This document shows, one piece after another, positions 11,190 through 51,121 of a stretch of DNA of 64,000 nucleotides. The notes under the pieces were generated by a model. The model was not told the origin of the DNA, searched no databases, and worked only from the letters and a program-made list of their open reading frames with translations. Source of the DNA: an uncultured bacterium (GTDB lineage: Bacteria > Bacillota > Clostridia > Lachnospirales > Lachnospiraceae); assembly GCA_947177425.1 (NCBI GenBank), contig CAMWUN010000006.1, positions 1 to 64,000 of the forward strand, in the 5' to 3' direction. The stretch's first letter is position 1. Each line of letters begins with the position of its first letter. The position numbers were made by a program, and so were the translations under genes.

Positions 11190-11228
11190 ATCAGCCAGAT
11201 TATAAATGAACATTATAATCTGGCTGAT
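11190..11228. terminator. Perfect 16-bp stem-loop between convergent genes
   Basis: ATCAGCCAGATTATAA (11190-11205) and its exact complement (11213-11228) flank a 7-nt loop. The chemoreceptor gene reads in from the left and the ycjS-like gene from the right. The T-rich tract is on the minus-strand side, so the hairpin probably serves both directions. Confidence 0.7.
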
Positions 11229-11279: not shown

Positions 11280-12335
11280 TTATAACGCTGGTGAAACCAT
11301 CACCGGTCTCCCTGTCTTGGCGGACTGGTACAGCTTCTCAATCACATTCTGTACATAAACGCCCTGCCATCCTGTGACCAGCAGTTCTTCCCTTCCCAGA
11401 CATGCGTTTACGAACTGAACCAGTTCCTTTTTATGAAGGTTCTCGTTTTCCTCAAAAGGGAAATGCTGGTTCCATATTTCCCCGTCTTCCCCGGAATAAA
11501 TTTCCAGCGGGAAAAGATCGGCTCCTTTTTTGTCCCCGAAAATGCTCAGCTTTTTCACATCCCTTTCCCGCATATTCAGGGCAAAGGATGTATCCAGCCT
11601 AAGCACTGTGCCGTTTTTAAACCGCACGTATCCAAAAAGAGCGTCTTCCACGGAAAAGGTATCTGCATTCCATTTTCCCATAAAACCCGTTCCGCCTTTT
11701 CGTCCGATAAAATCAAACATGTCCGCGCAGACATAGTCAATTTCAGGATAATCAAGAAGGTATAGGGCCAGATCCAGCACATGGGCGCCTATGTCGATAA
11801 GAGGGCCGCCTCCCTGTATTTCCTTATTGGTGAAGCATCCCCATCCGGGGATTCCCCTCCTTCTCAGCCAGACCGCATTTACACCATAGATTCTGCCGAA
11901 TTCTCCCTGCCCGATTTTTTCTTTCAGGTAACGGACACCTTTCCCATGCCTTAGATGAAATCCATAGGAAAGGAGTTTACCCTGCTCCTTAGCCGCCTGG
12001 TTCATGGTTTCGGCCTCTTCGACGCTTAATGCCGGTGGCTTCTCGCAAAGCACATGACACCCGGCCCGCAGGGCATCCACCGTCAGGGAACAGTGAAACT
12101 TGTTGGGAACGCACACGCTCACAATATCGGGTTTCACTTCCTGCAGCATCTGTTTATGGTCATTATAATAGGAAGGAATTCCAAACTGCTCTGCCAGGAC
12201 TTTGGCGGATTCCAGTCTGGTATCGCAGATTCCCGCCACGGTAACTTCCTCCATCTCTTTATAGTTGGGTATGTGGGACACCCGTGCAATCTGTCCTGCG
12301 CCAATCAGCGCAACTTTTAATTTTCCATTTTCCAT
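11280..12335 (-). CDS. Gfo/Idh/MocA oxidoreductase, YcjS-like glucoside 3-dehydrogenase
   Basis: A 351-residue NAD-dependent dehydrogenase. The Rossmann motif GAGQIARVSHI opens the protein and EKPPALS carries the family lysine. Long stretches (VVSVC-N, GVPGWG-like GIPGWGCFTNKEIQGGGPLIDIG, SVEDALFG) match E. coli YcjS as I recall it, which oxidises D-glucosides at C3. It is the last gene of the leftward ycj-like cluster, after the YcjR-like epimerase. AGGAG lies 7 nt before the ATG. Expected role: interconversion of 3-keto-glycoside and glycoside. Orthology is inferred from remembered sequence and synteny. Confidence 0.85.
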   Translation of the reverse strand: MENGKLKVALIGAGQIARVSHIPNYKEMEEVTVAGICDTRLESAKVLAEQFGIPSYYNDHKQMLQEVKPDIVSVCVPNKFHCSLTVDALRAGCHVLCEKPPALSVEEAETMNQAAKEQGKLLSYGFHLRHGKGVRYLKEKIGQGEFGRIYGVNAVWLRRRGIPGWGCFTNKEIQGGGPLIDIGAHVLDLALYLLDYPEIDYVCADMFDFIGRKGGTGFMGKWNADTFSVEDALFGYVRFKNGTVLRLDTSFALNMRERDVKKLSIFGDKKGADLFPLEIYSGEDGEIWNQHFPFEENENLHKKELVQFVNACLGREELLVTGWQGVYVQNVIEKLYQSAKTGRPVMVSPAL

Positions 12336-12418
12336 TTCCGCACTCCTGTCTGTCCAAATATTCTGAACATCTTTGAAAGTTCACTTCCCAGCCTGCAGCA
12401 TATCACCAGTCTCTTTTA

Positions 12419-13210
12419 TCAGATAAACTGTCTCATATAAGGGATAGACGCCTTATAGGCTTCCAGAGGATTTTCCCCACGCACACGGCCTTCGTTGACA
12501 ACCGCTCCCTCATAGCCGATTTCATGCAGAGTTTTCATATGACGGGCGAAATCAATGGAGCCTGTGCCCGGCTGGTATCTATGGTTTTCTGCAATATGGA
12601 TATGCCCGTAGTATTTTGCATATTTCTTTAAGGATTCGGAAATATCGTCCTCCTCAATTGCCATATGGTAAAAGTCGCCTGTAATTTTTACCCGTTCAAA
12701 TCCTCCTTCATCAATGATGGAAACCGCGTCTGAAATAGTGTTCAGCATGTGATCCTGGTATCTGTTTAAAGGCTCTAAATACAGATAAACGCCGTATTCC
12801 TTTGCAACAGGGTCAAGCTGTGACAGGGAGTCGATGATTGCCGCTCTGTCCCCTTCTTTACTTCTGGGGGAGTTCATGGGAGGAAGCCTGTAGGTAAACA
12901 TGCCCCATGCTGCAGGCACCACTACGCCTGTGCCTCCCACTTCGCTGATTAATTTCAGAATTACTTTTAAATCAGCGATTGCGTTCAGCCTGCGTTCCTC
13001 GATAAAGTCGCCAATCCATCCCCGGTAGCCTCCGCAGGCGGAGGATACCATAAGCCCGGAGGATTTTATGGCTTCCTTTACCTCCTGGGCATGGTCCATC
13101 AGCACTTTGCCGTCAATCTCAAAACAGTCAAAGCCAATTTCTTTCATAAATGCAAACTTTTCCTTCAGGTCTGCCGGGAAAAAATCCTTATCCTGAGTTC
13201 CTAAAATCAT
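12419..13210 (-). CDS. TIM-barrel sugar epimerase, YcjR-like
   Basis: A 263-residue protein of the xylose-isomerase-like TIM-barrel superfamily. The segments GFDCFEIDGKVLMDH, ACGGYRGWIGDFIEERRLNA, VVPAAWGMFTYRLPPM and YLEPLNRYQDHMLNT are near matches to E. coli YcjR, reported to epimerise 3-keto-D-guloside to 3-keto-D-glucoside at C4. The metal ligands are expected in EPLNRYQDH, GDFYHM and HIHIAENHRY. GAGGTGG precedes the ATG. It lies between the YcjS- and YcjQ-like genes, the same order as in E. coli. Confidence 0.85.
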   Translation of the reverse strand: MILGTQDKDFFPADLKEKFAFMKEIGFDCFEIDGKVLMDHAQEVKEAIKSSGLMVSSACGGYRGWIGDFIEERRLNAIADLKVILKLISEVGGTGVVVPAAWGMFTYRLPPMNSPRSKEGDRAAIIDSLSQLDPVAKEYGVYLYLEPLNRYQDHMLNTISDAVSIIDEGGFERVKITGDFYHMAIEEDDISESLKKYAKYYGHIHIAENHRYQPGTGSIDFARHMKTLHEIGYEGAVVNEGRVRGENPLEAYKASIPYMRQFI

Positions 13211-13297
13211 AATCCACCTCTTTCATCAGTTAACAACCTCGCGACAGCCGCCAAATAGATGCGTAAACACATCTGCATAGCTCCCTGCCCGCGGGAA

Positions 13298-14356
13298 TCA
13301 CTCACTAAAAGTTATGCCAAGTTTAATACTCTCTTCGGGATGCTGATCCACATATTTGCAAAAGCCTTCCGCTGACTCCTCAAAAGGTATCACAGGATAA
13401 ATAATGTCTTCGCAGTTTAAATAGCCGTTCATCAGCATTTCCCATACCACATTTTCAATTCTCTTCCTGTTCCATCTGGGATATTCCGGGTTTGGCTCAC
13501 TGCATGCTCTTGAGAAAATAATCTTCCCGTAATTGTAGTGGGCCTCCTGTCCTAACCACAGTCCTGCAGGGAAGGGTTTTGCAAAGGCCGCGTACGCAAT
13601 GGTTCCGCCGTAAGCCAGCCCTTTTAAGGCAGACTGGAGGGCATGTACGTTACCGCTGGTTTCAATGATAACATCCGCTCCCATTTTATCCGTCAGTCTC
13701 TTGATTTCATAGCCCGCATCACAGGCCGTATTGTCCAGCACGTAATGGGCGCCGTTCTTTTTTGCAATATCCCGTCTGTGGGCAATTGGGTCGATGGCAA
13801 TCACCGTGCCTGCCCCAAGCTTTGCCGCAATCTGGGCGGCAATCTGCCCGATTGCCCCAAGACCGATGACTGCCACATTGTCGCCAGGGCGCACATTGGC
13901 ATCCCGTATGGAACTTAAGGCAAATTGTGCAGGGTCATAGCAGACAGCATTTTTTGCCGACGCTTCTTTGCTCATTTTCCGCAGTTTATAGTTGTCTACC
14001 GCATTTACAATCTGGGTTTCTTTAATAGGTCCGTAGGAACATACCCTGTCCCCGACAGCATACTCTGTTACCTCCGACCCTGCCTCTATAATGGTTCCCA
14101 CAAACATATTTCCCAGCGGAAGGTCCCCAAATTCAATCCCTCTTGGCTCGTCCTTTTCCCTCTCCACGAAAATTTTCCATTCATCATCAAACTTCCCGTC
14201 AATAAAAGGTGTGGTACCTCTAAAGTCCGCCAGTTCCGTCCCATGCTTGGGTGAAGCAAACTCCACCTTTATACGCACTTCATTGCTTTTGATGGGCGCA
14301 TCTTCATACTCTCTGAACGCCGCTTCCCGCGGCTTTACTGCAACTAATTTTTTCAT
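13298..14356 (-). CDS. MDR-family dehydrogenase, YcjQ-like guloside 3-dehydrogenase
   Basis: A 352-residue medium-chain dehydrogenase. The NAD-binding motif GLGAIGQIAAQ lies near residue 170. The usual catalytic C-G-T-D is replaced by KHGTELADFRG, as in E. coli YcjQ, to which the whole protein aligns closely by eye (SRACSEPNPEYPRW, NGYLNCED, YVDQHPEESIK). YcjQ acts on D-gulosides at C3. GGAGG lies 7 nt before the ATG. It is 21 bp from the phosphorylase gene upstream and shares its operon. Together with the two genes after it, it would convert a guloside to a glucoside through 3-keto intermediates. Confidence 0.86.
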   Translation of the reverse strand: MKKLVAVKPREAAFREYEDAPIKSNEVRIKVEFASPKHGTELADFRGTTPFIDGKFDDEWKIFVEREKDEPRGIEFGDLPLGNMFVGTIIEAGSEVTEYAVGDRVCSYGPIKETQIVNAVDNYKLRKMSKEASAKNAVCYDPAQFALSSIRDANVRPGDNVAVIGLGAIGQIAAQIAAKLGAGTVIAIDPIAHRRDIAKKNGAHYVLDNTACDAGYEIKRLTDKMGADVIIETSGNVHALQSALKGLAYGGTIAYAAFAKPFPAGLWLGQEAHYNYGKIIFSRACSEPNPEYPRWNRKRIENVVWEMLMNGYLNCEDIIYPVIPFEESAEGFCKYVDQHPEESIKLGITFSE

Positions 14357-14377
14357 GATTTGTCCTCCATTTTCTTT

Positions 14378-16048
14378 TCACACCAGCCACTTACATTCGT
14401 ATGGTTTCAGTTCTGTCTCCGCCCCTGCCTTTTCACCGCTTAAGATATCCAGCCCCCAGGCAAAGGAATTCTTTATTTTTACTGTTTCCCCGGAAACATT
14501 GATATATATGGTTATCTTTTCTTCCCCGGAAAGAGATTCCCTCTCAAGGGCAAAGACTCTTTTATCCAGAGAAAGAATTCTCTGGGGGCCGTCCGGTGCA
14601 AAAGCCGGGTGACATGCCCTTATTTTCAGCCTGCGGAGCAATTCTTCAAATATGATTTTACGGTTGCTCCCACCTTCCAGCGCCTTTTCCAGTTCTTCTA
14701 TCTTTAATTTCTCCCGGTTGATTCGGCGCAGTATGCCGGAAGTGCTTTTACCATAATAATCATTTCTGGAACCCAGCAGGCTGTGTATATAAATCCCGGG
14801 AAGCCCCTGCATGGATAAAAGAATAGTCTCCGCAGCCAGAAATCTTTTTATCCTTATCTCGTCACTGTCTTCTGGGGAAGCCAGAGCGTCCTGATAGTTG
14901 ATGTTCAGTTCGTATGGGCTTTTCGTCCCGTCCCCGTTATCTTTGTAGGAAACCTCACCGCCGTTCCTCAAGGCGGAATCAACTAAAAACTGCTGTTCCG
15001 CTTTGTTTAAAATCCCCTCCACCGGACGTACTCCCACGCCGTCATGGGAACTTAAGAAATTAAAGTAAGTGGTTCCCGGCGCCGGTGTGTCCAGCTTCTG
15101 CGCCCACCCGGTAAGGTGGCTGGCATCCCCTGTCAGAAGGGAAAACATGGTAAGGGGCGGCAGAGGAAACTGGTATACAAGCTGTGCCTCATCCTTTCCG
15201 TTTCCAAAATAACTGATATTATCCTTATGGGGCACGTTGGTTTCTGTTATAAGCAGAGTGCCGGGTATATAATCCTCCAGCACCTTTCTGGCAAGCTTAA
15301 TAACCTCATGGGTATTAGGCAGATGCATACAGGACGTCCCCAGTTCCTTCCACAGAAATCCCACAGCATCCAGCCGTATAAGCCTTGCCCCGTTTTGGGC
15401 GTAGGTCAGGAGCACATCCAGAATTTCAATCAGCACATCCGGGCATTTACAGTTCAAATCAATCTGATCGTCACTGAATGTGGTCCACACATATTTTTCC
15501 CCTTCTGCTGTATCAAATTTCGTAAGCAGGGGAAGCGCCCGGGGTCTTGTCACTGTGCTGTAATCCGTCTCCGGATCGCAGGTAATGAAATAATCCTTAT
15601 AGGGTTCTTCACAGCACAGATATTTCTGGAACCAGTCCGAACTTTTGGAAATATGGTTAATCACTGCGTCAAACATCAGATGATAGTCTTCCGCCAGTCT
15701 GTTTACATCTTCCCAATCCCCTAAACCGGGGTTGATTTTTTTGTAGTCCACAACGGAAAAGCCGTCGTCCGATGTGTAAGGAAACATGGGCAGGATATGC
15801 ACCGTCGAAATGGCGTCTCCCACATATTTTTTCAGGAAACCGTGAAGTGTCGCAAAGCCCGGCTCCCCTTCTTTTACTAATGTATCTCCGTAGGTAATTA
15901 GTATGGAATCCTTTTCATTAAGCCATCCGGCCTTCGGCTGTGTTCCTTCAAATTTACGGAACCGCTTTTCCATTTTGTCCGCCGTCAAAGCCGCTTCCTG
16001 TTCTCCGTACAGCTTTGTAAGGCTTTTTATCCACTCATCTTTGCGCAT
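14378..16048 (-). CDS. GH13_18 phosphorylase, probable glucosylglycerate phosphorylase (YcjM-like)
   Basis: A 556-residue retaining glycoside phosphorylase of the sucrose-phosphorylase subfamily. The catalytic nucleophile is D227 (RLDAVGFLW), the acid/base E269 (ITETNVPH) and the transition-state stabiliser D336 (SSHDGVG). The segments FSDDQIDLN, TSCMHLPNTHEVIKL and SLLGSRNDYYG are those of YcjM-type glucosylglycerate phosphorylases and of sucrose 6-phosphate phosphorylases. The product would be alpha-glucose 1-phosphate plus glycerate, which fits the glycerate kinase upstream in the operon. The ATG at 16048 has AGGAG 9 nt upstream, overlaps the preceding gene by 14 bp and is preferred over 16075. 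Acceptor specificity needs assay. Confidence 0.88.
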   Translation of the reverse strand: MRKDEWIKSLTKLYGEQEAALTADKMEKRFRKFEGTQPKAGWLNEKDSILITYGDTLVKEGEPGFATLHGFLKKYVGDAISTVHILPMFPYTSDDGFSVVDYKKINPGLGDWEDVNRLAEDYHLMFDAVINHISKSSDWFQKYLCCEEPYKDYFITCDPETDYSTVTRPRALPLLTKFDTAEGEKYVWTTFSDDQIDLNCKCPDVLIEILDVLLTYAQNGARLIRLDAVGFLWKELGTSCMHLPNTHEVIKLARKVLEDYIPGTLLITETNVPHKDNISYFGNGKDEAQLVYQFPLPPLTMFSLLTGDASHLTGWAQKLDTPAPGTTYFNFLSSHDGVGVRPVEGILNKAEQQFLVDSALRNGGEVSYKDNGDGTKSPYELNINYQDALASPEDSDEIRIKRFLAAETILLSMQGLPGIYIHSLLGSRNDYYGKSTSGILRRINREKLKIEELEKALEGGSNRKIIFEELLRRLKIRACHPAFAPDGPQRILSLDKRVFALERESLSGEEKITIYINVSGETVKIKNSFAWGLDILSGEKAGAETELKPYECKWLV

Positions 16049-17750
16049 CACCTTTTTCTCCTTCCCAGGGGACATCTGCTATCATACTTTCTTTGTCCAC
16101 TGATTTCTCATTTATGACTAAACTGCGGGAAATCCCGGTATATACATTGTTCCTGATTTCTATATCCCGACAGTCGTTTAACTCTATGGCACAGCCGCTG
16201 TTTTCAAAGCAGTTTCCATCTATCGTAATCCGGCTGTTGAAAGGGCCGTCAAAGCCCTGGGATTTAACGGCAATGCATCCGCACCCGTACCTGCCGTATC
16301 TGGGTTTAAATCCAATATTGGAAAAATAATTGTTTCTGATTGTAATGTCATGGCCATGGCCGCTTTCGCAGTGGGTGTCAAATTCCGCCCCTATAAGCAC
16401 GCCTGCGTTCATCAGATTTTCATAACGGTTATTTTCTATCCGCACATTGCCGCAGCGTATCAGGTTTCCAGCCCCTGCAACATTCCGGAACACGGAATTT
16501 ATGCAGGTATAGCTTTCCGGTTCCCAGCAGAGGGGTTCCATCAATGTGCCCGGAGCAATCTCACCGTCAAAGGCATCTTCAAACCGTATCCGGTAGCAGG
16601 TGATGTGGTTTTTTGTGCCCTCCGCCGCACGTCCTGCGCTCTTATTTTCCGACTGGACGCTTTCTTCCATACGGCCGCCCATAACCATCCACTCTTTCAT
16701 CCGGTTATACCAAGTCCTGTCTCCGCCGTGGATTCTGACCTTTGTCCCTGCCTTGAGAGCAACCGGGGCATATTTGCAGGTACACAGAAGGGTTCTTTCA
16801 TCCACCATCCTGTCTGCAGTCAGATAATTGCTATGGACATTCTGGGCATCCATCCTAAGTCCCTCAAAATGGCACTGATTTACCAGAATATTTCCGCTGC
16901 ACCGGTAAATTTTCCACCCATCTCTTGGCCCTGTAAAAAGCTGTCCCTCCTTTGGCTTAATACATAGTTTCTCCGCCCGCATGTGACAGCAGTTTTCCGT
17001 CAGCAGGGCGAAGCTGTTTGTATTGTAAATTCTTACATTTACCATTGACAAGTCAGAAATTTCCCCAAAGAAAAGCAGAAAATCCGTTTTGCCCGCCGCG
17101 TGCCAGGAAAGCCCTTCCCCGGCCTTCACCCTTCGGGCAAGTTCTATGTCTCTAATTTCAAGACAGCCGCCCCGCAGACGCTTCCATCTTTTATCAAATC
17201 CAAATCCATAGGTCAGGCTTTCTCCCAGCAGGGCGCCGCTTTTCAGGTCAAAACGGTTCATACAGTAAGCCCCCATTTCCTCTTCTGTATCCAAACCGTG
17301 AAATGGTTTTACTCTGATGCAATCCCCTTCCGCCTGTTCCACCACACCACTGCACACCGTAGAAGGGGTTCTCCCAAATGCCAGATTCTCTATGGTCAGC
17401 CCGGCCCCCTTCTCCGCCCACAACAGGGAGGGATACAGAGATTGTATGGTATAAGGATAACATCCCGTCAGCAGAGACGCCGGACTGCCATCCTCATCCG
17501 TCTCTCCGACCAGCTTCAGATTCCGGACATCCTCGAGAACCAGATAACAGTCCTTCTCATGAACATCCCCACATCCGTCATCATGGGCAATCGACTTCGT
17601 CTGGATTGTTACCGTATCTTTCAGAAGATATTCTCCCTTAGAAAAATGAATCTCCTCCGCCCCCGTCTCCTTCGCATAAGCAATCGCTCTGCGTATCCCT
17701 CCGGCGGCCGACCTCTTATCCTTCACAAACCAGTCTGCTTCCACTCTCAT
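16035..17750 (-). CDS. Right-handed parallel beta-helix protein (pectate-lyase-like)
   Basis: A 571-residue protein without a signal peptide, so intracellular. Repeats such as VRIENNRYENLMNAGVLIG, ITIRNNYFSNIG, ITIDGNCFENSGCAIELND and IEIRNNVYTGISR are typical right-handed beta-helix coils; the N-terminus (GGIRRAIAYAKETGAEEIHF) is like the opening of pectate-lyase-superfamily proteins. Such folds occur in glycosidases, lyases and epimerases. I cannot assign a family or catalytic residues. It overlaps the phosphorylase gene and follows the SGNH hydrolase by 117 bp. It is absent from the E. coli ycj cluster, so it probably supplies a glycan-specific step. Confidence 0.75.
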   Translation of the reverse strand: MRVEADWFVKDKRSAAGGIRRAIAYAKETGAEEIHFSKGEYLLKDTVTIQTKSIAHDDGCGDVHEKDCYLVLEDVRNLKLVGETDEDGSPASLLTGCYPYTIQSLYPSLLWAEKGAGLTIENLAFGRTPSTVCSGVVEQAEGDCIRVKPFHGLDTEEEMGAYCMNRFDLKSGALLGESLTYGFGFDKRWKRLRGGCLEIRDIELARRVKAGEGLSWHAAGKTDFLLFFGEISDLSMVNVRIYNTNSFALLTENCCHMRAEKLCIKPKEGQLFTGPRDGWKIYRCSGNILVNQCHFEGLRMDAQNVHSNYLTADRMVDERTLLCTCKYAPVALKAGTKVRIHGGDRTWYNRMKEWMVMGGRMEESVQSENKSAGRAAEGTKNHITCYRIRFEDAFDGEIAPGTLMEPLCWEPESYTCINSVFRNVAGAGNLIRCGNVRIENNRYENLMNAGVLIGAEFDTHCESGHGHDITIRNNYFSNIGFKPRYGRYGCGCIAVKSQGFDGPFNSRITIDGNCFENSGCAIELNDCRDIEIRNNVYTGISRSLVINEKSVDKESMIADVPWEGEKGDAQR

Positions 17751-17867
17751 TTCCTACTCCATTTCTGCCCAAAGGCGCTATCGAAAACCTATGGCACGGG
17801 CTTGACACTATGCGCAGACAATATGTCCGGCCAGCTTCCCAGCCACACCGCAGTTTCCCAGCGCCTC

Positions 17868-18533
17868 TCACATACAAAGACTATCCCTGATGCCCCGGAC
17901 TAATACCTTTTCAATCTTATCGTACCCTGCCCGGTTAGGATGCACATGGTCTTCCAGAAATCTTTCTTCATTCTGTCTGTGGATATTCACCAGTCTCCCC
18001 ACATCTATCAGAGGAAAATGGTACCGCCATGAGGCTTCCTCCAGCGCTTTCCCGTAATCATACATGGTATGTCCTGCTTTATTCTTCAAAAAGAACGCGT
18101 CATCTGTCCGGTTTCCTCCGTCCGGCATCTCCAGCCGGAATATGGGGGTTGCCCACACAATGGGCGTCTCCGGGAATTCTGTCCGCAGGGTGGTAACGGC
18201 CGCTCTCACGGAGGCAAAGAAACTCTCTCCATCCTCATCCTCACAGGAACCTATGGGGGTTCCCCAGTACCAGTCATTACTGCCATGCCAGATGAAAATA
18301 AGATCCGGTCTTTGCATTTTCTCCCACATTTTTTCCTTGATCTGCTTTTCCATCACCGCCAGCATCCCATTAGGGGTGGCTTTGGAAAGGCCGCTGGAAC
18401 CTACTGCAAAATTGTGTAGTTCCTGCATATGGAATTCCTTTTTTAAAGCTTCCAGATAAGCCCCGTCCCCGTGGGTTCCTGTGGAAAGGCTGTCCCCGTA
18501 AATCCAAATCCGCTCCAATTTATCAACCTGCAT
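17868..18533 (-). CDS. SGNH/GDSL-family hydrolase (probable esterase)
   Basis: A 221-residue SGNH hydrolase. Block I is YGDSLSTG with the nucleophilic serine, block III is WHGSNDW, and the Asp/His pair is in EDHVHPNRAGYDKI. No signal peptide is present. The family removes acetyl or other acyl groups from carbohydrates and lipids. GGAGGAG lies 4-5 nt before the ATG at 18533; an upstream ATG at 18548 would place that site inside the gene and is rejected. Its position in the glycoside operon suggests deacylation of the imported compound. Confidence 0.85.
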   Translation of the reverse strand: MQVDKLERIWIYGDSLSTGTHGDGAYLEALKKEFHMQELHNFAVGSSGLSKATPNGMLAVMEKQIKEKMWEKMQRPDLIFIWHGSNDWYWGTPIGSCEDEDGESFFASVRAAVTTLRTEFPETPIVWATPIFRLEMPDGGNRTDDAFFLKNKAGHTMYDYGKALEEASWRYHFPLIDVGRLVNIHRQNEERFLEDHVHPNRAGYDKIEKVLVRGIRDSLCM

Positions 18534-18596
18534 CTCTCTCCTCCACACCCCTTCCCAAACTGCACGAATTCAAATACATACCCTGCCTTCGCAAAT

Positions 18597-20264
18597 TTAC
18601 AGGGAAATTTCAAATTTTGTAACGGACTGCTGTCCTTTGTTTCCGCTTACGGGGAAATCATATTCCTTCCCCTTAAATCTCACTTTCAGCAGGAATTCGT
18701 CTTTTGTCTCCACTGTAATTACCAGCTTTTCATCTATTATCCGGGCGTCAAGATCCGCCTGTTTTCCTTTAAACCAGTAGCGGTCGCATCCCACACTGCC
18801 CCCGGCCAGATAGTCTTCGTTCAGTGTCCATTCCAGATAATCCGCTCCTTCCGGCACGCACAGTCCCACACCATACTGTACATAGTAAAGGATGGGGGCA
18901 AGTCCTGACCATCCCACCATATCCGGGTGGTCGGAGTTTCCGCTGGTCAGATATTCCGGGGGATAATTTTCCCAGATAGTTCCCGTATCCTGGAATACTT
19001 TATTAAGCACCTCCAGATGGTTAACGGCAATATCCCGTGCCAGTTCCCGGAAACCGCATTTTTCCAGACCAAGGACAATCATTGCGTTGGTAGGCGCCCA
19101 GACGGACCCTGCCCAGTAGCCGCCCATGGGATCATACTCCTCCTCGTCGGCCGCCAGCACCGGTACCCTGTGCGGCCGTTTGAAAGTCTTTTCATCATCC
19201 AGCCATGCCGCCAGTCTCTTTTGCTGTTCCTTATTGGCCGTTCCTGATATCAGCGCCCAGAATGCCGCCGCGGTTTTCATGCCGCTTTGTTTTTCTTCAA
19301 AAGTCACATCGTAGAAAAAGCCGTCTTCCTCATTCCACATATATTTCTGGATGGCTTCTATAGTCTCCTCTTTATCCTTCTTAAGGAAAGCTTCCCGTTT
19401 GTCTGCATCTTTGACGGGCATATCATGGGCCTTTAATACATCCATCATGTCAAGAAGATTATTGGCGAACAATACCATCTCACAGGTAGGATCCACGCCA
19501 AATCCCAGATATTTATTGCGGGGAGAGTTGTCCATGCTTGCCCAGTCTGTCACATACAGGCCGTTTGCGTGGCGCACATGATACCGGAATGCCTTATAAT
19601 ACTGGTACAAAGGTTCCCACACCAGTTTCAGCCGCTCCACATCCCCTGTATGGACGAAACTCTGCCACTCTGCCATTGCCAAAATCGGATGATTCAGGTT
19701 GTCCAGAGTCAGATAGGGATTTTTCGGAACCTCTCTCCCAAGTTCCGGCTTATACATATCCTCATAGGAAAGGTTCGTCATCTGCTTTAGTCCCCGGAAC
19801 CCATAATGATTGTGGAAATAAGAATACAGGGGTTTGTCGTAGGCATTTACCCACAGTAAAAAGTCTTTTCCCGTATCCCGTACCATTTCCCGGGGGATTT
19901 CCCCGTCGTCAAACTGTTTACAGTAAAAATTGTCAAGGGAACAGATGCCCGGAATATATTTGTGGAACAGGTTGCAGAATAAGGTCATAAAACAGGTATC
20001 CCACAAAAAAATGTCATCATTAAAAGCTGCATCCACGAAATTGCTTACATACCCGCTTCCGTCCTTTGGCTTATGGGTATTTCCGAACAGAATCTTCACG
20101 GTATACCAGTAACAGTCGTTCCATTCAGGCTTTGCCCCAATCCTTGGATCAGGCAGGCTTTCCCTTACCTCGTCAAATACCGGTAGAGGCTTGTTGTCAT
20201 ATTCCTTTTTATCAAAAAACATTCCCCTGGGCGCGCTGTCCAAAAATGTGTAATCTCTTTCCAT
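18597..20264 (-). CDS. (alpha/alpha)6-barrel glycosidase, GH63-like (mannosyl/glucosylglycerate hydrolase type)
   Basis: A 555-residue cytosolic protein with the GH37/GH63-type toroid pattern: FLWDTCFMTLF (about 93), DWASMDNSPRN (about 243), and the late GGYWAGSVWAPTNAMIVLGL and IWENYPPEY. GH63 includes bacterial mannosylglycerate and glucosylglycerate hydrolases, and the next gene encodes a glycerate kinase, which supports a glyceryl glycoside substrate. The GTG two codons earlier is possible, but GAGG lies 5 nt before the ATG at 20264. It begins 7 bp after the kinase gene. A different alpha-glycoside target remains possible. Confidence 0.75.
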   Translation of the reverse strand: MERDYTFLDSAPRGMFFDKKEYDNKPLPVFDEVRESLPDPRIGAKPEWNDCYWYTVKILFGNTHKPKDGSGYVSNFVDAAFNDDIFLWDTCFMTLFCNLFHKYIPGICSLDNFYCKQFDDGEIPREMVRDTGKDFLLWVNAYDKPLYSYFHNHYGFRGLKQMTNLSYEDMYKPELGREVPKNPYLTLDNLNHPILAMAEWQSFVHTGDVERLKLVWEPLYQYYKAFRYHVRHANGLYVTDWASMDNSPRNKYLGFGVDPTCEMVLFANNLLDMMDVLKAHDMPVKDADKREAFLKKDKEETIEAIQKYMWNEEDGFFYDVTFEEKQSGMKTAAAFWALISGTANKEQQKRLAAWLDDEKTFKRPHRVPVLAADEEEYDPMGGYWAGSVWAPTNAMIVLGLEKCGFRELARDIAVNHLEVLNKVFQDTGTIWENYPPEYLTSGNSDHPDMVGWSGLAPILYYVQYGVGLCVPEGADYLEWTLNEDYLAGGSVGCDRYWFKGKQADLDARIIDEKLVITVETKDEFLLKVRFKGKEYDFPVSGNKGQQSVTKFEISL

Positions 20265-20271
20265 ATCCACC

Positions 20272-21417
20272 TCAAACTTTCTGCTTTTCCTGCATTTTTA
20301 TCACTCTTGCAAAATTTTCAACTGCAAAAGCCAGATTTTTTTCCGCACTGTCCAAAATAGATTCTATGGAATCATTTTTCCGCAGAATGCAGAAAATAGC
20401 AGTAATTCCGCTTTCATAATGCTGGTTGCTCTCTCCCTTGGACATTCCCACAAAGGCTATCACAGGTTTCCCGTACTTCTTGGCAATCCGGGCGATGCCC
20501 ACCGGCACCTTTCCCTCCAGACTCTGGGCGTCCATGGAGCCTTCCCCTGTAAGCACATAATCACATTCTTTTATCTTTTCTTCTATGTTCATGGATTCAA
20601 TCAGATATTTGGAGCCGCTGATATACTTTGCGTCACAGATGCCGTACAGGGCGCACCCGATTCCTCCGGCGGCGCCTGCCCCTGCAATATCCGATATCTT
20701 TCTTCCTGCAGCTTCATTCATCCTTGCGGCGTAATTTTCCATTCCAAGTTCCAGTTCGTCCAGCATCGCCTGTGTTGCGCCTTTCTGGGCGCCGAATACG
20801 CGGGTGGCTCCCCCCGGTCCAAGGAGCGGGCTTTTCACATCATAAAGGACAATCACTTCTATATTCTTCATCTTTTCTTTTGGCGCCGATAAATCCATAT
20901 TTCTAATCTGCCTCAGCCCTCTTCCGCCCCGGTCTATTTCCTTTCCCTGGCCGTCGGTAAGTTTTGCCCCAAGAGCTGAAAGCATCCCGCAGCCCCCGTC
21001 ATTGGTCACGGTCCCTCCCAGCGTAAGAATAAGCTGGCGGCATCCCATACTGATGGCATGGTTAATCAGTTCCCCGACCCCATAGGATGATGCCATCATG
21101 GGATTCTTTTCTTCGGAATGAATCAGCATGATTCCGCAGGCTTTCGCCACTTCAATGACCGCCTTTTTCTGTTCCTCAAACCAGACGAATCCAGAATCAA
21201 TCTTTTTCCCTAAAGGATTTTCAACCACACACTGTACAATTTCCCCTGCACCGCACATCCTCAGGCAGTCCGCCGTTCCTTCTCCTCCGTCCGCCATAGG
21301 CAGAATCTCGCACTGGGCCTCGGGCAGCACCTTATGGATGGCGTTCTTCATCACCTCTGCGGCCTCCTGTGCAGACATGCTTCCTTTGTATGAATCCGGG
21401 GTTATAAGAAATTTCAT
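20272..21417 (-). CDS. Glycerate kinase (GlxK/GarK family)
   Basis: A 381-residue kinase that phosphorylates D-glycerate, giving 2-phosphoglycerate in the GarK/GlxK group. Diagnostic segments are FLITPDSYKGSMSAQEAA at the N-terminus, MADGGEGTADCL, GGTVTNDGGCGMLSALG and YVLTGEGSMDAQSLEGK. AAGGAG lies before the ATG at 21417; the open frame extends upstream but without a site. It lies between the ABC ATPase gene (24 bp away) and the GH63-like gene. In E. coli garK is controlled by CdaR; a CdaR-type regulator is encoded 5 kb to the right, which supports glycerate as a catabolite of this locus. Confidence 0.92.
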   Translation of the reverse strand: MKFLITPDSYKGSMSAQEAAEVMKNAIHKVLPEAQCEILPMADGGEGTADCLRMCGAGEIVQCVVENPLGKKIDSGFVWFEEQKKAVIEVAKACGIMLIHSEEKNPMMASSYGVGELINHAISMGCRQLILTLGGTVTNDGGCGMLSALGAKLTDGQGKEIDRGGRGLRQIRNMDLSAPKEKMKNIEVIVLYDVKSPLLGPGGATRVFGAQKGATQAMLDELELGMENYAARMNEAAGRKISDIAGAGAAGGIGCALYGICDAKYISGSKYLIESMNIEEKIKECDYVLTGEGSMDAQSLEGKVPVGIARIAKKYGKPVIAFVGMSKGESNQHYESGITAIFCILRKNDSIESILDSAEKNLAFAVENFARVIKMQEKQKV

Positions 21418-21440
21418 TGTTTCTGTCTCCTTACCTACAC

Positions 21441-22547
21441 TCACTTGATTCTCTTCGTGGTTTCCCTGTCAAAAAACATAACCATCTCATTTTTTACGTA
21501 ACATGAAACCTTAGTCCCGGGCTTCATATCCATATAGTCCACCGTGTGAATCTTCACGTTCTGGTTAGTCCCAATTCTGGTAATCAGGATGGAATGGGAA
21601 CCCTGAGGCTCAATAAAGTCAATCTCCGCATCGCACAGGTATCCTTCCCCTTCCTTCTTCTGGGGCGATATCCCAATATATTCAGGCCGGATTCCCATAT
21701 CCACTTCTTTGCCCACATAGTCCGCAAGAGCCTGATGCAGGGAAGCAGGCACCTTGTAATAAAAGCCCTCTCCCTTTGCGTATATTTCTTTTCCTTCTTT
21801 AATAATAGAAGCGTCAAAGAAGTTGGTAGGCGGAGTGCCAATAAATTCCGCAACAAAGCGGGTAGCGCTGTCCTGATAAACCTCCATGGGAGTTCCTATC
21901 TGCTCGATCTTCCCTTTGTACATAACCACAATCCGGTCCGCCATACTCATGGCTTCCGACTGGTCATGGGTAACAAAAATGCTGGTGGAACCCTGCTGGG
22001 TATGGATTCTTTTCAACTCTGTCCTCATGGTGACGCGCAGCTTTGCATCCAGATTGGATAAAGGCTCATCCATAAGGAACAGCCTGGGTTCCACAACAAT
22101 GGCTCTGGACACCGCAACTCTCTGCCGCTGGCCTCCTGACATCTGGGCAGGGTATCTCTTTAAAAGCCCCTGAATTTCCGTGGCCTCAGCAGCCTTTTCC
22201 ACTCTTCTTTTAATCTCATCCTTTGGAAGCTTCTGGAGTTTTAAAGGATAGGCAATATTGTCATACACTGTCATATGGGGCCATACCGCATAACTCTGGA
22301 AAATCATGGACACACCCCTCTCCCTTGGAAGCTTATTGACAATGCTTTCCCCGTCAATGGTAATGTCCCCTCCAGTGATTTCCTCAAGACCGGATATCAT
22401 TCGGATGGTAGTAGTCTTCCCACACCCGGAAGGCCCCAGGAATACAATAAATTCTCCTTTTTCTATGGAAAGGTTCATGTCATTTACAATAAGCGGCCCG
22501 TTTGCCGTATATTTTTTCTGTAAGTTCTTAATCTCTAAATAACTCAT
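21441..22547 (-). CDS. Sugar ABC transporter ATP-binding protein (UgpC/MsmK/YcjV type)
   Basis: A 368-residue nucleotide-binding subunit. Walker A GPSGCGKTT, signature MSGGQRQRVAV, Walker B LFLMDEPLSN and the switch histidine in FVTHDQSEAM are all intact. A C-terminal TOBE/MalK-like domain follows from about 240. GGAGG lies 12 nt before the ATG at 22547. It belongs with the two permeases and the binding protein to its right and is the counterpart of YcjV. Confidence 0.93.
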   Translation of the reverse strand: MSYLEIKNLQKKYTANGPLIVNDMNLSIEKGEFIVFLGPSGCGKTTTIRMISGLEEITGGDITIDGESIVNKLPRERGVSMIFQSYAVWPHMTVYDNIAYPLKLQKLPKDEIKRRVEKAAEATEIQGLLKRYPAQMSGGQRQRVAVSRAIVVEPRLFLMDEPLSNLDAKLRVTMRTELKRIHTQQGSTSIFVTHDQSEAMSMADRIVVMYKGKIEQIGTPMEVYQDSATRFVAEFIGTPPTNFFDASIIKEGKEIYAKGEGFYYKVPASLHQALADYVGKEVDMGIRPEYIGISPQKKEGEGYLCDAEIDFIEPQGSHSILITRIGTNQNVKIHTVDYMDMKPGTKVSCYVKNEMVMFFDRETTKRIK

Positions 22548-22633
22548 ATTTCGCTCTTTCCTCCATTTCTGCTCCGGTACAGCCCTGCATAAAACATATG
22601 GTTCATCCGCATGGGTTATACTGGTTTTCACGG

Positions 22634-23683
22634 TTATAATTCAACGCCGCCCCACATCTGTCCGATGTATTTGCGGATAATAAAGGTAAATACCAGCGCC
22701 GGTATAATCAGCACAATGCTGCCTGCCGCCGCATACTGGATGCCGCTGGAGGTGGTGCCGATCGCCTTATACACAACCAGCGCAAGGGTCTGGTTCTCGT
22801 TAGTAAGAATCAACGCTGAAATGGTATCATTCCATGCTGTCAAAAAAGAGTACATGGAGCTTGCCGCCATTGCGGGAAATGCCATGGGCAGGGTAATTTT
22901 CATAAAAGTCTGCACACTGTTTGCCCCGAAAACAAAGGAAGCTTCCTCAAGTTCCTTGTTAATGCCAATGAAAATACTGCTGGTAATCCAGGAAGTCAGG
23001 GCAATATTGGGTATGGAATACAGGAAGGCAAGACCTAACATGGTGTCATAAAGCCCCATCTTAATCAGCATCACCGCCATAGGTATACTTATGCCTACTG
23101 TAGGGAACATTCTGACTATTAAAAGACCAACATTAATCTGCTCCCTTCCTTTGAATTTGTACCTTGCAATTGCGTACCCTGCAAGACTCCCTAAGGACAG
23201 GGATATCAGAATCGTGTACAGGGATACAATAATACTATTTTTCAGGGCAGGCCCTGCGTTGGGCACAATTTTGAAAAACTGCCTGAAATTATAGAACATA
23301 TCCTTCTTAAAGGTAAATTCCCTTGCCCCTTCCGTACGGGTCTTCGCAAATTCCTCTAAAAGTTCGTCCCCGTCAATAGTCACTGCATACTGTCTTGCAA
23401 AATGCTTTTCCAGTTTTGATGCGCTGTTTGTGGTGATAATGGAGGTGTACCCATTGCCATCCTTGTAATCGTAAAACAGTTCATACTTTCCGCCCTCTTC
23501 CGGCTCCACATACACCGTCACCTCACCGGAAGGAAACATCCGCTTGGGGAACTGGGTCATTTCCGTCGCATTGGAAAAAGAAACGGTAATAAAGAACAGT
23601 AACGGTATGGTAACTAACATGACCATTCCTGCCAGTATAATTGCAAAAACACATTTTTGTACTGCGCTTAATCTATCCATCAT
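22634..23683 (-). CDS. Carbohydrate ABC transporter permease (UgpE/MalG type) with an outer insert
   Basis: A 349-residue permease with about six membrane segments. The EAA loop is EASFVFGANSVQTFMKITLP. Between TM1 (about 13-33) and TM2 (about 147-170) there is an extracytoplasmic insert of more than 100 residues (FPSGEVTVYVEPEEGG and onwards), longer than the usual MalG periplasmic loop. It overlaps the first permease gene by 4 bp (ATGA), which implies translational coupling. Counterpart of YcjP. Confidence 0.9.
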   Translation of the reverse strand: MMDRLSAVQKCVFAIILAGMVMLVTIPLLFFITVSFSNATEMTQFPKRMFPSGEVTVYVEPEEGGKYELFYDYKDGNGYTSIITTNSASKLEKHFARQYAVTIDGDELLEEFAKTRTEGAREFTFKKDMFYNFRQFFKIVPNAGPALKNSIIVSLYTILISLSLGSLAGYAIARYKFKGREQINVGLLIVRMFPTVGISIPMAVMLIKMGLYDTMLGLAFLYSIPNIALTSWITSSIFIGINKELEEASFVFGANSVQTFMKITLPMAFPAMAASSMYSFLTAWNDTISALILTNENQTLALVVYKAIGTTSSGIQYAAAGSIVLIIPALVFTFIIRKYIGQMWGGVEL

Positions 23684-24573
23684 CCTTCCTCACCTCCCCC
23701 TGCAATCCTGTTTCTGTTAGATACCCTTAAGTAAACCACGGTTGCCAGAAGCACCACGATTGTGGTCAGGAAGGAGTAAGTGTAAGCCAGCTTCGTACTG
23801 GTGTCCACTCCCGGAATCGCATCCACATAAAAGGCAATCCGTTCAACCAGAAACGGCGCTTTTGAGTAGCCAAGCACCATAACCGCTATGGACCATACCT
23901 GAACCGCCGCAATCATACGCATGATAACAGAGGTTGTTATGGAGGGTTTCAGAATCGGTAATGTAATATCTTTTAAAATCTGCCATTTGTTCGCGCCAAA
24001 GGTATAGGCTGCTTCCTTCAGTTCCCTCTGCAGTCCCTGCAGGCCTGCAATGAGAATAATCATGACCGAAGGCGTCACTGTCCAGGTATCAATTGCAATC
24101 AGTAATAAAATAGCGTTGAACCCTTCTGCATTCATGAACACAATAGGCTGATCGATTATGTGCAAATTCATAAGCAACGAATTAATCCATCCGTCCTTTA
24201 CAAGTCCGGTCTTCCACAAAATAGCCGTAGCCGTAGGCGTGATTGCCATGGGAATCATGGAGACGAACATCAAAAGTTTGGAACCGGTAAATTTTCTCGA
24301 TAATAATAAGGCAAGAACTAATGCGATGATATACTGCAGAATTACAGAAATCGCTGCAAAAGCCGCTGTGTTGAGAACTGATTCAGAAAACAGTTCTGAC
24401 TGGAACATCAGCTTTAAATTTTCAGTAAGTGTAAAGCCCCCATCCATTCCAATAAATACTTCTCTTACTCCCGACACCACCGGCGCAAGCCAAAATACTG
24501 CATAATAAATAAATATGGGAAATAATAACAGATAGGGAGTTGCTTTCTTGGGAACTTTTAAACTTTTATGCAT
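23680..24573 (-). CDS. Carbohydrate ABC transporter permease (UgpA/MalF type)
   Basis: A 297-residue inner-membrane permease with six segments and the EAA motif EAAYTFGANKWQILKDITLP. AAGGAG lies 9 nt before the ATG. It follows the binding-protein gene after a 132-bp gap that holds a strong stem-loop, the usual way of making more binding protein than permease. Counterpart of YcjO. Confidence 0.92.
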   Translation of the reverse strand: MHKSLKVPKKATPYLLLFPIFIYYAVFWLAPVVSGVREVFIGMDGGFTLTENLKLMFQSELFSESVLNTAAFAAISVILQYIIALVLALLLSRKFTGSKLLMFVSMIPMAITPTATAILWKTGLVKDGWINSLLMNLHIIDQPIVFMNAEGFNAILLLIAIDTWTVTPSVMIILIAGLQGLQRELKEAAYTFGANKWQILKDITLPILKPSITTSVIMRMIAAVQVWSIAVMVLGYSKAPFLVERIAFYVDAIPGVDTSTKLAYTYSFLTTIVVLLATVVYLRVSNRNRIAGGGEEG

Positions 24574-24622
24574 TTTCAGCTTCTCCTTTCCTTAACGGTG
24601 TTGTTTTTGTTTATATAAGCTG

Positions 24623-24647
24623 GGGGGCTGAATTTATCAGCACCCCC
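24623..24647 (-). terminator. Stem-loop between binding-protein and permease genes
   Basis: GGGGGCTGA and TCAG-CA-CCCCC pair around ATTTA. No U-run follows on the minus strand, so it is more likely a partial terminator or 3-prime stabiliser of the binding-protein mRNA than a full stop. Confidence 0.55.
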
Positions 24648-24705
24648 GGCAAATTTATGAACATATGGATAATCCGCCAAATACGGCATCCGTTGTGTGA
24701 TACAA

Positions 24706-26076
24706 TTACTCTGTGATATACAGCGCTTCCAATTCCGCCTGTTTTCCGCTTAAGAAATCGTCGCTGGGCGCTGCCTTGGTGCTAAGAATCTCGTTGAAGA
24801 TATCACCGTAAAGCAGTTTTACTGCATTCCAGTCAGAGTACTCTGTGGAAGGAACGCCGCTTACAATGGCTGTGTCAAGAATGTTGATACCTGCCTGCAT
24901 AACTACGTCTTCGTCTGTCAGAATGTCGCCTACCTGTGCAATAGGGCTTAAAGCGCCGCCATAATTGGAGCAGAAGCTGTAATTTACTTCGGGCCTTGCA
25001 ATATATTCAATAAACGCTTCTGCAAGATCTGCGTGGGGCGCGCCGTTCTGGATGCCATAGCACCATGCTCCTGAAGTGGAGCCTACTCCTGTACTTCCGC
25101 TGGGTGCCGCGCCAATGACAAAGTTATTGGGTGCTGCATTATAGCTTGTACCTGCTGGAGCCATGTGGGAGAAAGCAAGCCATACATCGCCGCTGTTCAT
25201 AGGCTCGGTCACTGCCGTGTACTGATCCTGCTCTGCATAAAAGCCGTCTCCTGCCGCAATCTTTGCAACAACTTCCATAGCGCTCTTGAATCCGTCAGAA
25301 GTAAATTCGGGGAAAGAACCGCCGTAAGCAAGGCTCATGCCTCCCATGGGATAGAGAAGCTGGGAACCTGTCATGTTGGAAGGCATCATGGTTTTTCCTG
25401 TGCCTTCCCCTTCTGCGATTGCCACTGCCCAGTCAGCATACTGTTCCCAGGTAATACCGGAAACCACGTCCTCTTTAGTCAGTCCGTCGGGAAGATAATC
25501 CAAAGCCTTTACATTGGCAATGAGCACATATACGTCAAAGGAATTGGGAACAAAATATCTCTTTCCGTCCTTGTTGGTAGTTCCGTCAAACATACTTGTA
25601 TAAGTGGAGCCTGTCCCGTCAACAACAGCCGTGATATCCTGCATCCATCCGCCGTTTACATAAGGCGCCATGTTTGCGGTATCTGCATAAATAACGTCGG
25701 TTACGATATTGCCGGATTCCTGCTCCGTCTTGATTTTGGTAATGGCGTCAGCCTGTGCAACAAAGTCAACATTAACTGTCACGCCGTATTCCTCTTCAAA
25801 GTCTGCAAAATACTCATCCATCAAATATTCTTTCTCATGAACCTCGGGAGTTCCGCTGTAAAGAATCGTCAGTTCTGTGGATGTGATTTCACTTCCTGCC
25901 GCCTCCTCTCCGCCGTCTTCCTCCGCTTCAGGAGCCTGTGCATTTTCAGTTTCTTTTTCTTCAACATTTTCATTAGCCGGCGTTGTGGAAGGCGCGCTGT
26001 CCTTAGAACCTCCGCATCCTGCTAAAGAAGATGCAACCATACCCATTGTCAGTAAAATCGCTAATCTCTTTTTCAT
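24706..26076 (-). CDS. Sugar ABC transporter substrate-binding lipoprotein
   Basis: A 456-residue lipoprotein. The signal peptide ends in SSLAGCGG with the lipidated cysteine at residue 21, followed by an acidic, low-complexity linker (about 25-65) and a family 1 binding-protein fold (AFSHMAPAGTSYNAAPNN, STSGAWCYGIQNGAPHADLAEAF). AAAGGAG precedes the ATG at 26076. It is the first gene of the transporter/catabolic operon and counterpart of YcjN. Ligand inferred as a glycoside from the downstream enzymes. Confidence 0.92.
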   Translation of the reverse strand: MKKRLAILLTMGMVASSLAGCGGSKDSAPSTTPANENVEEKETENAQAPEAEEDGGEEAAGSEITSTELTILYSGTPEVHEKEYLMDEYFADFEEEYGVTVNVDFVAQADAITKIKTEQESGNIVTDVIYADTANMAPYVNGGWMQDITAVVDGTGSTYTSMFDGTTNKDGKRYFVPNSFDVYVLIANVKALDYLPDGLTKEDVVSGITWEQYADWAVAIAEGEGTGKTMMPSNMTGSQLLYPMGGMSLAYGGSFPEFTSDGFKSAMEVVAKIAAGDGFYAEQDQYTAVTEPMNSGDVWLAFSHMAPAGTSYNAAPNNFVIGAAPSGSTGVGSTSGAWCYGIQNGAPHADLAEAFIEYIARPEVNYSFCSNYGGALSPIAQVGDILTDEDVVMQAGINILDTAIVSGVPSTEYSDWNAVKLLYGDIFNEILSTKAAPSDDFLSGKQAELEALYITE

Positions 26077-26174
26077 ACTTTTCTCTCCTTTAATACATTT
26101 GTTTGTTGTTATGAAAGTCATTTTATCTTCTTTATGCCCAATTATCAATGTTAAAAGACACATAGTTTTTTGTC

Positions 26175-27793: not shown

Positions 27794-27806
27794 GGTATTT
27801 TTCCTT

Positions 27807-49636: not shown

Positions 49637-49719
49637 TTTCCTTATCTCCTATCTTATATTTCTGCCGCTTGCATAAGTTTTTCCTTCTCTACAGTCTTCC
49701 GAAGGATAGCCATGTATTT

Positions 49720-50838: not shown

Positions 50839-51049
50839 AATTGCTTCCTCCAAAAAATATATATTTCACATGCAGAGTCAATTATCGCGATAGCCAGTCT
50901 GCTCTTTCTACTTTTGATTGTATCTGACAAAGCCATATATTCATATCAGATAATCACTTTTTATATCAAATTTCTCCTGTAAAAAAAATGTATTTCAATC
51001 ACGTCATCCTGGTAAAACTATGCCATGCAGATATACATTTTCCTCGTAA

Positions 51050-51090
51050 AAAAGGAGCTGCCACTATCTTGTAAATAGTAAAGCAGCTCC
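51050..51090 (-). terminator. Terminator of the second sulfatase gene
   Basis: GGAGCTGC and GCAGCTCC with inner ACTAT/ATAGT pairing; the minus strand continues with TTTTTTACG. The rest of the 283-bp gap to the oxidoreductase gene has no recognised element. Confidence 0.8.
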
Positions 51091-51121
51091 AGCCTAAACT
51101 ACCGGCAATGCCATATTCTTT

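Follow-up and report, generated by a model that had tools for sequence, protein, structure and literature searches.

A ycj-type operon from a Lachnospiraceae bacterium with additional glycerate kinase, GH63-like, SGNH and GH110-like genes points to a glycerate glycoside as candidate substrate

To our knowledge, the natural substrate of the ycj cluster of Escherichia coli is not known. One report, in the passages available, describes a screen of ligands for YcjN that yielded no hit (PMC11543891). The question which glycoside is degraded by enzymes of this type is raised again by a 64,000-nucleotide stretch of DNA (the window; contig CAMWUN010000006.1 of assembly GCA_947177425.1, positions 1 to 64,000) from an uncultured Lachnospiraceae bacterium, the genome of which is a 4.19-Mb draft in 142 contigs. 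Its minus strand carries a compact operon of twelve genes (positions 11280-26163, intergenic gaps of -41 to 132 bp), which encode, in this order, a binding protein, two permeases, an ATPase, a glycerate kinase, a GH63-like protein, an SGNH protein, a beta-helix protein, a GH13_18 protein and YcjQ-, YcjR- and YcjS-like proteins (Table 1). An earlier note on this DNA had described the genes as a Gram-positive counterpart of the E. coli cluster, and re-reading of the window returned the same genes, order and strand. In our judgement, it is somewhat probable that this operon serves the import and degradation of a soluble, probably esterified alpha-glycoside with D-glycerate at its reducing end.

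The likeness to the E. coli proteins was assessed by pairwise BLAST against the K-12 sequences of NC_000913.3, the activities of YcjQ, YcjR and YcjS being taken from their RefSeq product names. Over nearly their full length, the operon proteins share 66.3% identity with YcjQ (350 columns), 56.2% with YcjR (260 columns), 45.5% with YcjS (345 columns) and 44.0% with YcjM (554 columns). These values for YcjQRS (QRS) clearly exceed the likeness to generic family members, as the note had implied: the Q-, S- and M-like proteins reach at most 26% to the paralogues compared from their own genome (28% for the GH13 paralogue by another measure), and, for the YcjR-like protein, comparison with the PDB gives 334 bits for the YcjR structure 6wn6 as against 89.7 bits for the next family. 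In the alignment with YcjR, Glu146, Asp179, His205 and Glu240, which we take to be the metal ligands of the epimerase, are identical. At sequence level, the four proteins are thereby confirmed as orthologues of YcjQ, YcjR, YcjS and YcjM, and the co-located YcjQRS orthologues characterize the operon as a predicted ycj-type guloside-to-glucoside pathway. One report, in the parts available, words YcjQ as a D-glucoside dehydrogenase (PMC11543891).

With the E. coli K-12 cluster ycjMNOPQRSTU, the operon thus has in common the orthologous M, Q, R and S proteins, the Q-R-S order and an ABC sugar transporter. In contrast to that cluster, it lacks OmpG as well as YcjT and YcjU, for which, in agreement with the note, pairwise BLAST gave no match within the cluster, and its transporter belongs to another subfamily. 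The YcjNOP-type transport proposed in the note has to be abandoned, as no match to YcjN was found in the operon at E 1e-3 and the permeases reach about 30% identity to YcjO and YcjP over part of their length; the 47% identity of the ATPase to the reading frame left open in the ycjV pseudogene of E. coli carries little weight in so large a family. The start of the binding protein at 26076 agrees with the note, a lipoprotein-like leader being visible by eye from this Met, with the mechanical open reading frame extending to 26163. The GH65 genes that a search with YcjT detected in this genome (39% and 30% identity) are located on other contigs. A GH65 gene on contig C62 (L149:8908-11310) was considered as a displaced YcjT and rejected, because it is 35-42% identical to all seven GH65 proteins compared and, hence, not YcjT-specific; no ycj gene was found in its stretch, and the search match contains one in-frame TAG.

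What the operon adds to the E. coli cluster are the glycerate kinase, GH63-like, SGNH and GH110-like (beta-helix) genes, together with a CdaR/PucR-type regulator gene that lies in the same orientation 562 bp upstream of the operon. The four genes had been recorded in the note as extras; they are indeed present but were under-read, being the informative ones. Conversely, the counterpart as such is real but already known: in the portions of the literature available, Listeria lmo2834-2837 bear Ycj names (PMC5808219), lmo2840 is named YcjM (PMC8190317), and Firmicutes fall within a YcjN homologue cluster that has the E. coli gene neighbourhood (PMC11543891). Hence, ycj clusters in Gram-positives are known, and it is the composition of the present variant which is new. 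Clusters of Listeria, Enterococcus, Neobacillus and Blautia (loci L067, L041, L025 and L014) likewise hold M and QRS together, and all but the Blautia cluster also contain glycerate kinase. They differ, however, from the operon in keeping YcjNOP-type transport and YcjT, and neither a GH63-like nor a GH110-like gene was found in them.

The phosphorylase, the glycerate kinase and the CdaR-type regulator of the window agree in pointing to D-glycerate as aglycone. According to the accessible sections of one study (PMC7178133), glucosylglycerate phosphorylases (GGaP) are distinguished by a (T/S)ETN motif and a Glu in loop A, and their genes are often accompanied by a glycerate kinase gene. The GH13_18 protein of the operon carries TETN and PYE, i.e. 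Tyr-Glu in loop A, and therefore the GGaP signature; the same holds for 82 of 84 aligned GH13_18 proteins (L012, the same as L136, being counted twice). The two proteins without this signature, L137 and the paralogue L138 of the window's own genome, lie outside QRS and GH63 clusters. L137 (8535-10349; contig C45 of genome G253) is a GH13_18-type protein of 39% identity to YcjM from another ABC-transporter cluster, in which TETN is replaced by AEVS with the loop-A Tyr-Glu kept; it possibly represents a different phosphorylase specificity. The kinase passes the curated cut-off of TIGR00045 (Table 1). For the regulator, the NCBIfam equivalog CdaR (NF008550) is the best model with 153 bits, below its cut-off of 612, whereas the Pfam Diacid_rec domain is recognized. 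E. coli CdaR is stated to respond to glucarate, galactarate and glycerate in the available part of PMC4551912.

How far this gene set extends was examined by searching species genomes with YcjR and analysing the best 80 of 139 relatives. The record titles of these loci comprise Lachnospiraceae, Bacillus and kin, Paenibacillus, Listeria, Enterococcus and enterobacteria, so that conservation of QRS and YcjM far beyond enterobacteria, as proposed in the note, is borne out; the closest named locus is that of 'Lachnospiraceae bacterium strain 1XD21-87' (L007; YcjR 94% identical). Q, R and S occur together in 79 of the 80 loci and GGaP in 74. Among the other six, L009 and L022 have GGaP just downstream, and the loci L010, L013, L018 and L044 are truncated at contig ends. 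YcjT is missing in five of the 79 QRS loci, three of which contain the GH63-like gene (L007, L008 and L023), the others being a 5.3-kb contig (L013) and an interrupted locus (L060); among the 66 full-length QRS loci, it is missing in four, i.e. the three GH63 loci and the interrupted one. YcjU never occurs without YcjT in QRS loci. Both window-type permeases are present in six of the 80 loci (L008, L009, L011, L022, L043 and L070; 69-90% identity for permease 1). When the Q, R and S sequences of 40 loci were concatenated for a tree, the window, L007 and L008 formed one clade (support 1.0). This clade groups with YcjT-bearing loci (0.88) to the exclusion of L023; hence, the YcjT-less GH63 form appears, with moderate support, in two places of the tree. 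The interrupted locus, from Siccibacter colletis (L060:10804-13082), ends with a ycjS frame of 313 amino acids, followed by an integrase-like gene (by eye), and no ycjT or ycjU was found there.

The GH63-like protein is probably an inverting (alpha/alpha)6 glycosidase, as judged from Pfam matches to the mannosylglycerate-hydrolase-like domain PF22422 and the trehalase domain PF01204 (Table 1) and from a profile of 13 relatives, which detects YgjK as best match in the PDB besides alpha-glucosidase I type enzymes and Thermus TTHA0978, a mannosylglycerate hydrolase (MgH). Its predicted model is weak (mean pLDDT 56.3, pTM 0.66). Foldseek searches with this weak model return (alpha/alpha)6 enzymes: GH78 rhamnosidases (E 6e-5) and GH65 kojibiose phosphorylase (E 3e-4), with YgjK, MgH and glucosylglycerate hydrolase (GgH) at E >0.01. 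Asp247 (MDNSPR) and Glu434 (WENYPP) lie in motifs invariant across the 13 aligned sequences and are candidate catalytic residues; as counterparts of GgH Asp182 and Glu419, they are candidates from motif spacing and an extrapolated hidden Markov model offset only. A further argument from motif spacing, that the glycerate-binding Arg216 of MhGgH has no counterpart in the protein, was discarded because the residue alignments obtained were all to YgjK. Thermus MgH and MhGgH belong to the same broad family of GH63 hydrolases and share the candidate inverting-type motifs, whereas the operon protein is longer and far below the cut-off of the GgH model.

Carriers of the GH63-like gene (at least 54% identity) were collected from 397 family, 392 order, 398 phylum and 331 class genomes, sets that overlap and were searched with different E limits, and from follow-ups of 17, 2 and 2 genomes. 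Nine carriers were obtained: the window, L007, L008 and L023 via YcjR, and G046, G361, G253, G880 and G1296 via GH63. GGaP accompanies the gene in all of them; eight have both in one cluster, and G1296 has GGaP on a different contig, together with QRS and YcjT. Eight of the nine also have QRS, a count biased by the four carriers that were found via YcjR; of the five found via GH63, four have QRS, either in the same cluster (G046, G361) or elsewhere (G253, G1296). No YcjQ was found in genome G880, where GH63 and GGaP share a cluster; in L104, these two form one cluster with QRS on another contig. Of the 397 family genomes, six contain a YcjR orthologue (E 1e-60) and four a GH63 orthologue (at least 61% identity), these four being among the six (hypergeometric 1.5e-8; 9.7e-7 when leaving out one genome, such as the window's own). 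An SGNH gene stands alongside GH63 in seven of the nine carriers, the contig of G880 being too short to tell. In Hungatella hathewayi and H. effluvii, QRS, YcjT, a CdaR-type gene, a window-type transporter, a large protein, GGaP, GH63 and SGNH follow in one run; the large protein is a GH38 protein in H. hathewayi, and its H. effluvii counterpart starts alike. Distant GH63 relatives (about 27-36% identity) were excluded from the counts, as those examined (L113-L119) showed no GH13_18-type match in their loci; of nine weak matches in the 397 family genomes, L117 is the one inspected. Sulfatase genes were observed in a ycj cluster (L012:7406-8908) and in the GH63-GGaP cluster of L104 (11366-12790), apparently of the same genome.

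Two further operon proteins bear on the substituents of the substrate. For the beta-helix protein, Pfam sees a generic beta-helix only, but a profile of its three orthologues finds the GH110 alpha-1,3-galactosidases in the PDB (7jwf, E 6.8e-17). Its model is of moderate quality (pLDDT 64.8, pTM 0.68), and the first 15 Foldseek matches are all alpha-1,3-galactosidases (best E 1.6e-22, TM-score 0.52-0.63 by query length; next fold E 1.2e-6). Those among them not titled GH110 are presumably GH110 members as well. The available text on PdGH110B names Asp344 as likely general acid and Asp321 and/or Asp345 as activating water (PMC7939477). In the window protein, these correspond to Met300, Asp277 and Asp301, with Met in all three orthologues. 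Hence, fold, profile and two of three catalytic Asp residues are shared with PdGH110B, while the general acid is replaced and no export signal is seen by eye, and the label of a working alpha-galactosidase is unwarranted because of this replacement. The probable target of the protein is an alpha-galactosyl- or gulosyl-like residue, which it would attack without the usual general acid. GH36 alpha-galactosidase genes, found in or near the clusters of Paenibacillus L043 and G1296 (L121) with a close relative in L070, may hint at such an alpha-galactosyl-like residue a second time. With regard to the SGNH protein, two Paenibacillus loci contain a different SGNH-type gene between ycjQ and ycjR, which suggests a recurring ester on the substrate; esterified glucosylglycerate has precedent, as mycobacterial glucosylglycerate may bear octanoate according to the part of PMC4555173 available.

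Combining these data, the compound would be taken up by the binding protein and permeases and relieved of its ester group by the SGNH enzyme. The GH63-like enzyme would then hydrolyse a terminal alpha-linked hexose (mannose or glucose) off a glucosylglycerate core, doing the job of YcjT phosphorolysis in the usual cluster, so that YcjU beta-phosphoglucomutase would not be needed. YcjQRS could turn gulo- (3-keto-galacto/gulo-) residues into the glucose configuration, the YcjM-type phosphorylase would split 2-O-alpha-D-glucosyl-D-glycerate into alpha-glucose 1-phosphate and D-glycerate, and the glycerate kinase would channel the latter to glycolysis, with the CdaR-type protein presumably sensing glycerate or a sugar acid. 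Sequence comparison shows the gene content, the orthology of QRS and YcjM, the GGaP signatures, the glycerate kinase, the compact operon and the conserved linkage of M with QRS and the GH63-like gene, on which this proposed degradation of a D-glycerate glycoside is built. Leading candidates for the substrate are mannosylglucosylglycerate-like or kojibiosyl-glycerate-like compounds. More speculative, and rather doubtful at present, is the idea that ycj pathways naturally serve a novel family of oligosaccharides that are esterified, have glucosyl-(1->2)-D-glycerate as reducing end and bear gulose, mannose or galactose as a rare outer residue; in the present variant, a GH63-like enzyme of new specificity and a GH110-derived enzyme lacking the general acid would then replace the kojibiose phosphorylase branch.

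Several observations weigh against this assignment. Glycerate kinase was called (at least 30% identity over half the query) in 31 of the 80 loci, 49 showing none at this threshold, and is present in the cluster of only three of nine GH63 carriers (the window, L007 and L008; clusters only were searched). The GH110-like gene is likewise limited to three of nine (the window, L007 and L023), and its product has lost the general acid corresponding to Asp344. For the GH63-like protein, the GgH model NF047898 gives 21 bits at a cut-off of 550, which leaves its specificity without that support. The idea that the GH63-like gene strictly takes the place of YcjT is weakened, because the Hungatella clusters (L100, L102) hold both. 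Moreover, the 80 loci are a selected sample, and two of the four overlapping family genomes are from the same genus. Finally, the pair of a mannose-6-phosphate-isomerase-like (PMI-like) gene and a ROK kinase gene, which adjoins GH63 in L023 and L104, is also found in Paenibacillus clusters that contain YcjT but not GH63, which weakens this pair as proof of mannose.

Readings that differ in the outer part of the molecule have to be weighed against each other. In mannosylglucosylglycerate catabolism, the GH63-like enzyme would act as alpha-mannosidase on Man-alpha-1,2-Glc-alpha-1,2-glycerate, giving mannose and glucosylglycerate for phosphorolysis by YcjM, with QRS reserved for gulosyl or other variants. 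This is a tentative possibility, for which the nature of PF22422, the PMI-like and ROK genes just mentioned and the H. hathewayi GH38 protein (mannosylglycerate hydrolase as sole NCBIfam match, 423 bits, below the cut-off of 1138) speak, as do the compound itself, an osmolyte known to have the linkage in question (PMC3694870, as far as available), and the existence of GH63 plus GGaP clusters apart from QRS (L104) or in a genome where YcjQ was not found (G880). However, no mannose gene is present in the window operon, and related GH63 enzymes are reported to take both glucosyl- and mannosylglycerate in the accessible part of PMC6608630. If, instead, a kojibiosyl-glycerate is degraded, QRS would convert gulosyl to glucosyl residues and the GH63-like enzyme would hydrolyse the alpha-1,2-glucosyl bond that is phosphorolysed elsewhere by YcjT. 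YcjT and YcjM are given as kojibiose phosphorylase and glucosylglycerate phosphorylase, respectively, in the table available from PMC8950772. The GH63 loci are the sole uninterrupted YcjT-less ones among the full-length QRS loci, YcjU is absent as well, and the best PDB profile matches are to YgjK, a glucosidase; the coexistence of GH63 and YcjT in Hungatella and the composition of G880 argue the other way, and we regard this variant, too, as possible rather than likely.

Assignment of the GH63-like protein as a plain GgH is ruled out on its score. That it would still serve as a glucosylglycerate hydrolase alongside the phosphorylase appears improbable: it does belong to the broad family of the mycobacterial enzyme, and Glu434, by the extrapolated NCBIfam offset rather than by direct alignment, falls near model position 420 and thus about GgH Glu419, but such an activity would be redundant with the phosphorylase of all nine carriers, the protein is longer, and its structural match to GgH is weak (E 0.14). 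A DgpA-like 3-keto deglycosylation of plant glycosides without any link to glycerate could be read from the best PDB match of the YcjS-like protein, DgpA (205.8 bits; no YcjS structure among the top 60). It is nevertheless very unlikely, as the presence of all four Ycj proteins, of GGaP signatures and of a glycerate kinase favours ycj chemistry and the TIM-barrel protein is by far nearest to YcjR.

Taking the glycerate glycoside as preferred reading, the variant narrows the search for the ycj substrate, since glycerate kinase, CdaR-type regulator and GGaP point to a D-glycerate aglycone and an 'unidentified glycoside' becomes a testable class of glycerate glycosides, with the accompanying hydrolases and esterase suggesting which caps the substrate may bear. 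While the link between GGaP and glycerate kinase is known, its connection to QRS, GH63, SGNH and GH110-like genes is added here. This combination was not found described in the open-licence literature as represented by titles, beginnings of abstracts and passages, which is weak evidence of absence. Two proteins are of particular interest with respect to specificity, the GH63-like hydrolase and the GH110-like protein without general acid.

Table 1 Features of the ycj-type operon and its surroundings in the window
Feature	Position	Strand	Evidence
CdaR/PucR-type regulator, sugar-diacid recognition domain	26726..27886	-	PF05651 134.5 bits (cut-off 23.6), PF13556; probable start 27793 by eye
ABC solute-binding protein, lipoprotein-like leader	24706..26163	-	PF13416, PF01547; likely start 26076 by eye
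ABC permease 1	23680..24573	-	YcjO 30% over 115 columns only
ABC permease 2	22634..23683	-	YcjP 30% over 205 columns
ABC transporter ATPase	21441..22631	-	63-96% to ATPases of L007, L008, L009, L011, L022, L023, L043, L070
Glycerate kinase	20272..21444	-	PF02595 437.7 bits (cut-off 23.3); TIGR00045 436.3 bits (cut-off 168.45)
GH63-like (alpha/alpha)6 glycosidase, probably inverting	18597..20270	-	PF22422 87 bits, PF01204 71 bits; PDB profile, Foldseek
SGNH/GDSL esterase	17868..18548	-	PF13472 62 bits (cut-off 32.9); motifs GDS, GSND, DHVHP; export signal not seen (by eye)
GH110-like parallel beta-helix	16035..17750	-	PDB profile 7jwf E 6.8e-17; Foldseek; Met300, Asp277, Asp301
GH13_18 glucosylglycerate phosphorylase, YcjM orthologue	14378..16075	-	44% to YcjM; TETN and PYE signatures
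YcjQ orthologue, D-guloside 3-dehydrogenase type (MDR)	13298..14356	-	66% to YcjQ
YcjR orthologue, 3-keto-hexoside 4-epimerase type (TIM barrel)	12419..13210	-	56% to YcjR; 6wn6 E 5.4e-99
YcjS orthologue, glucoside 3-dehydrogenase type (Gfo/Idh/MocA)	11280..12335	-	45.5% to YcjS
Terminator-like stem, 16 pairs, after last gene	11190..11228	-	terminator-like site scan

As a class, terminator-like sites are not enriched over shuffled sequence (19 found, mean 18.0), and neither the Rfam scan of positions 7000-31000 nor the tRNA scan of the whole window gave a match. In Paenibacillus, a PMI-like gene, a ROK kinase and a GH36-type alpha-galactosidase stand next to ycj clusters (L043:1192-6170 and L070:3-4924); the four PMI-like proteins of L043, L070, L023 and L104 are 50-63% identical, and their ROK kinases differ. 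A second pair of MDR and Gfo/Idh/MocA genes, 23-24% identical to the YcjQ and YcjS types of the operon, lies next to a sulfatase gene at 48671-52639 on the minus strand of the window. A chemotaxis-receptor-like gene (methyl-accepting, by eye; 9175-11148) ends convergently near the end of the operon and might sense the substrate; a relative of it adjoins the QRS-YcjT cluster of L135.

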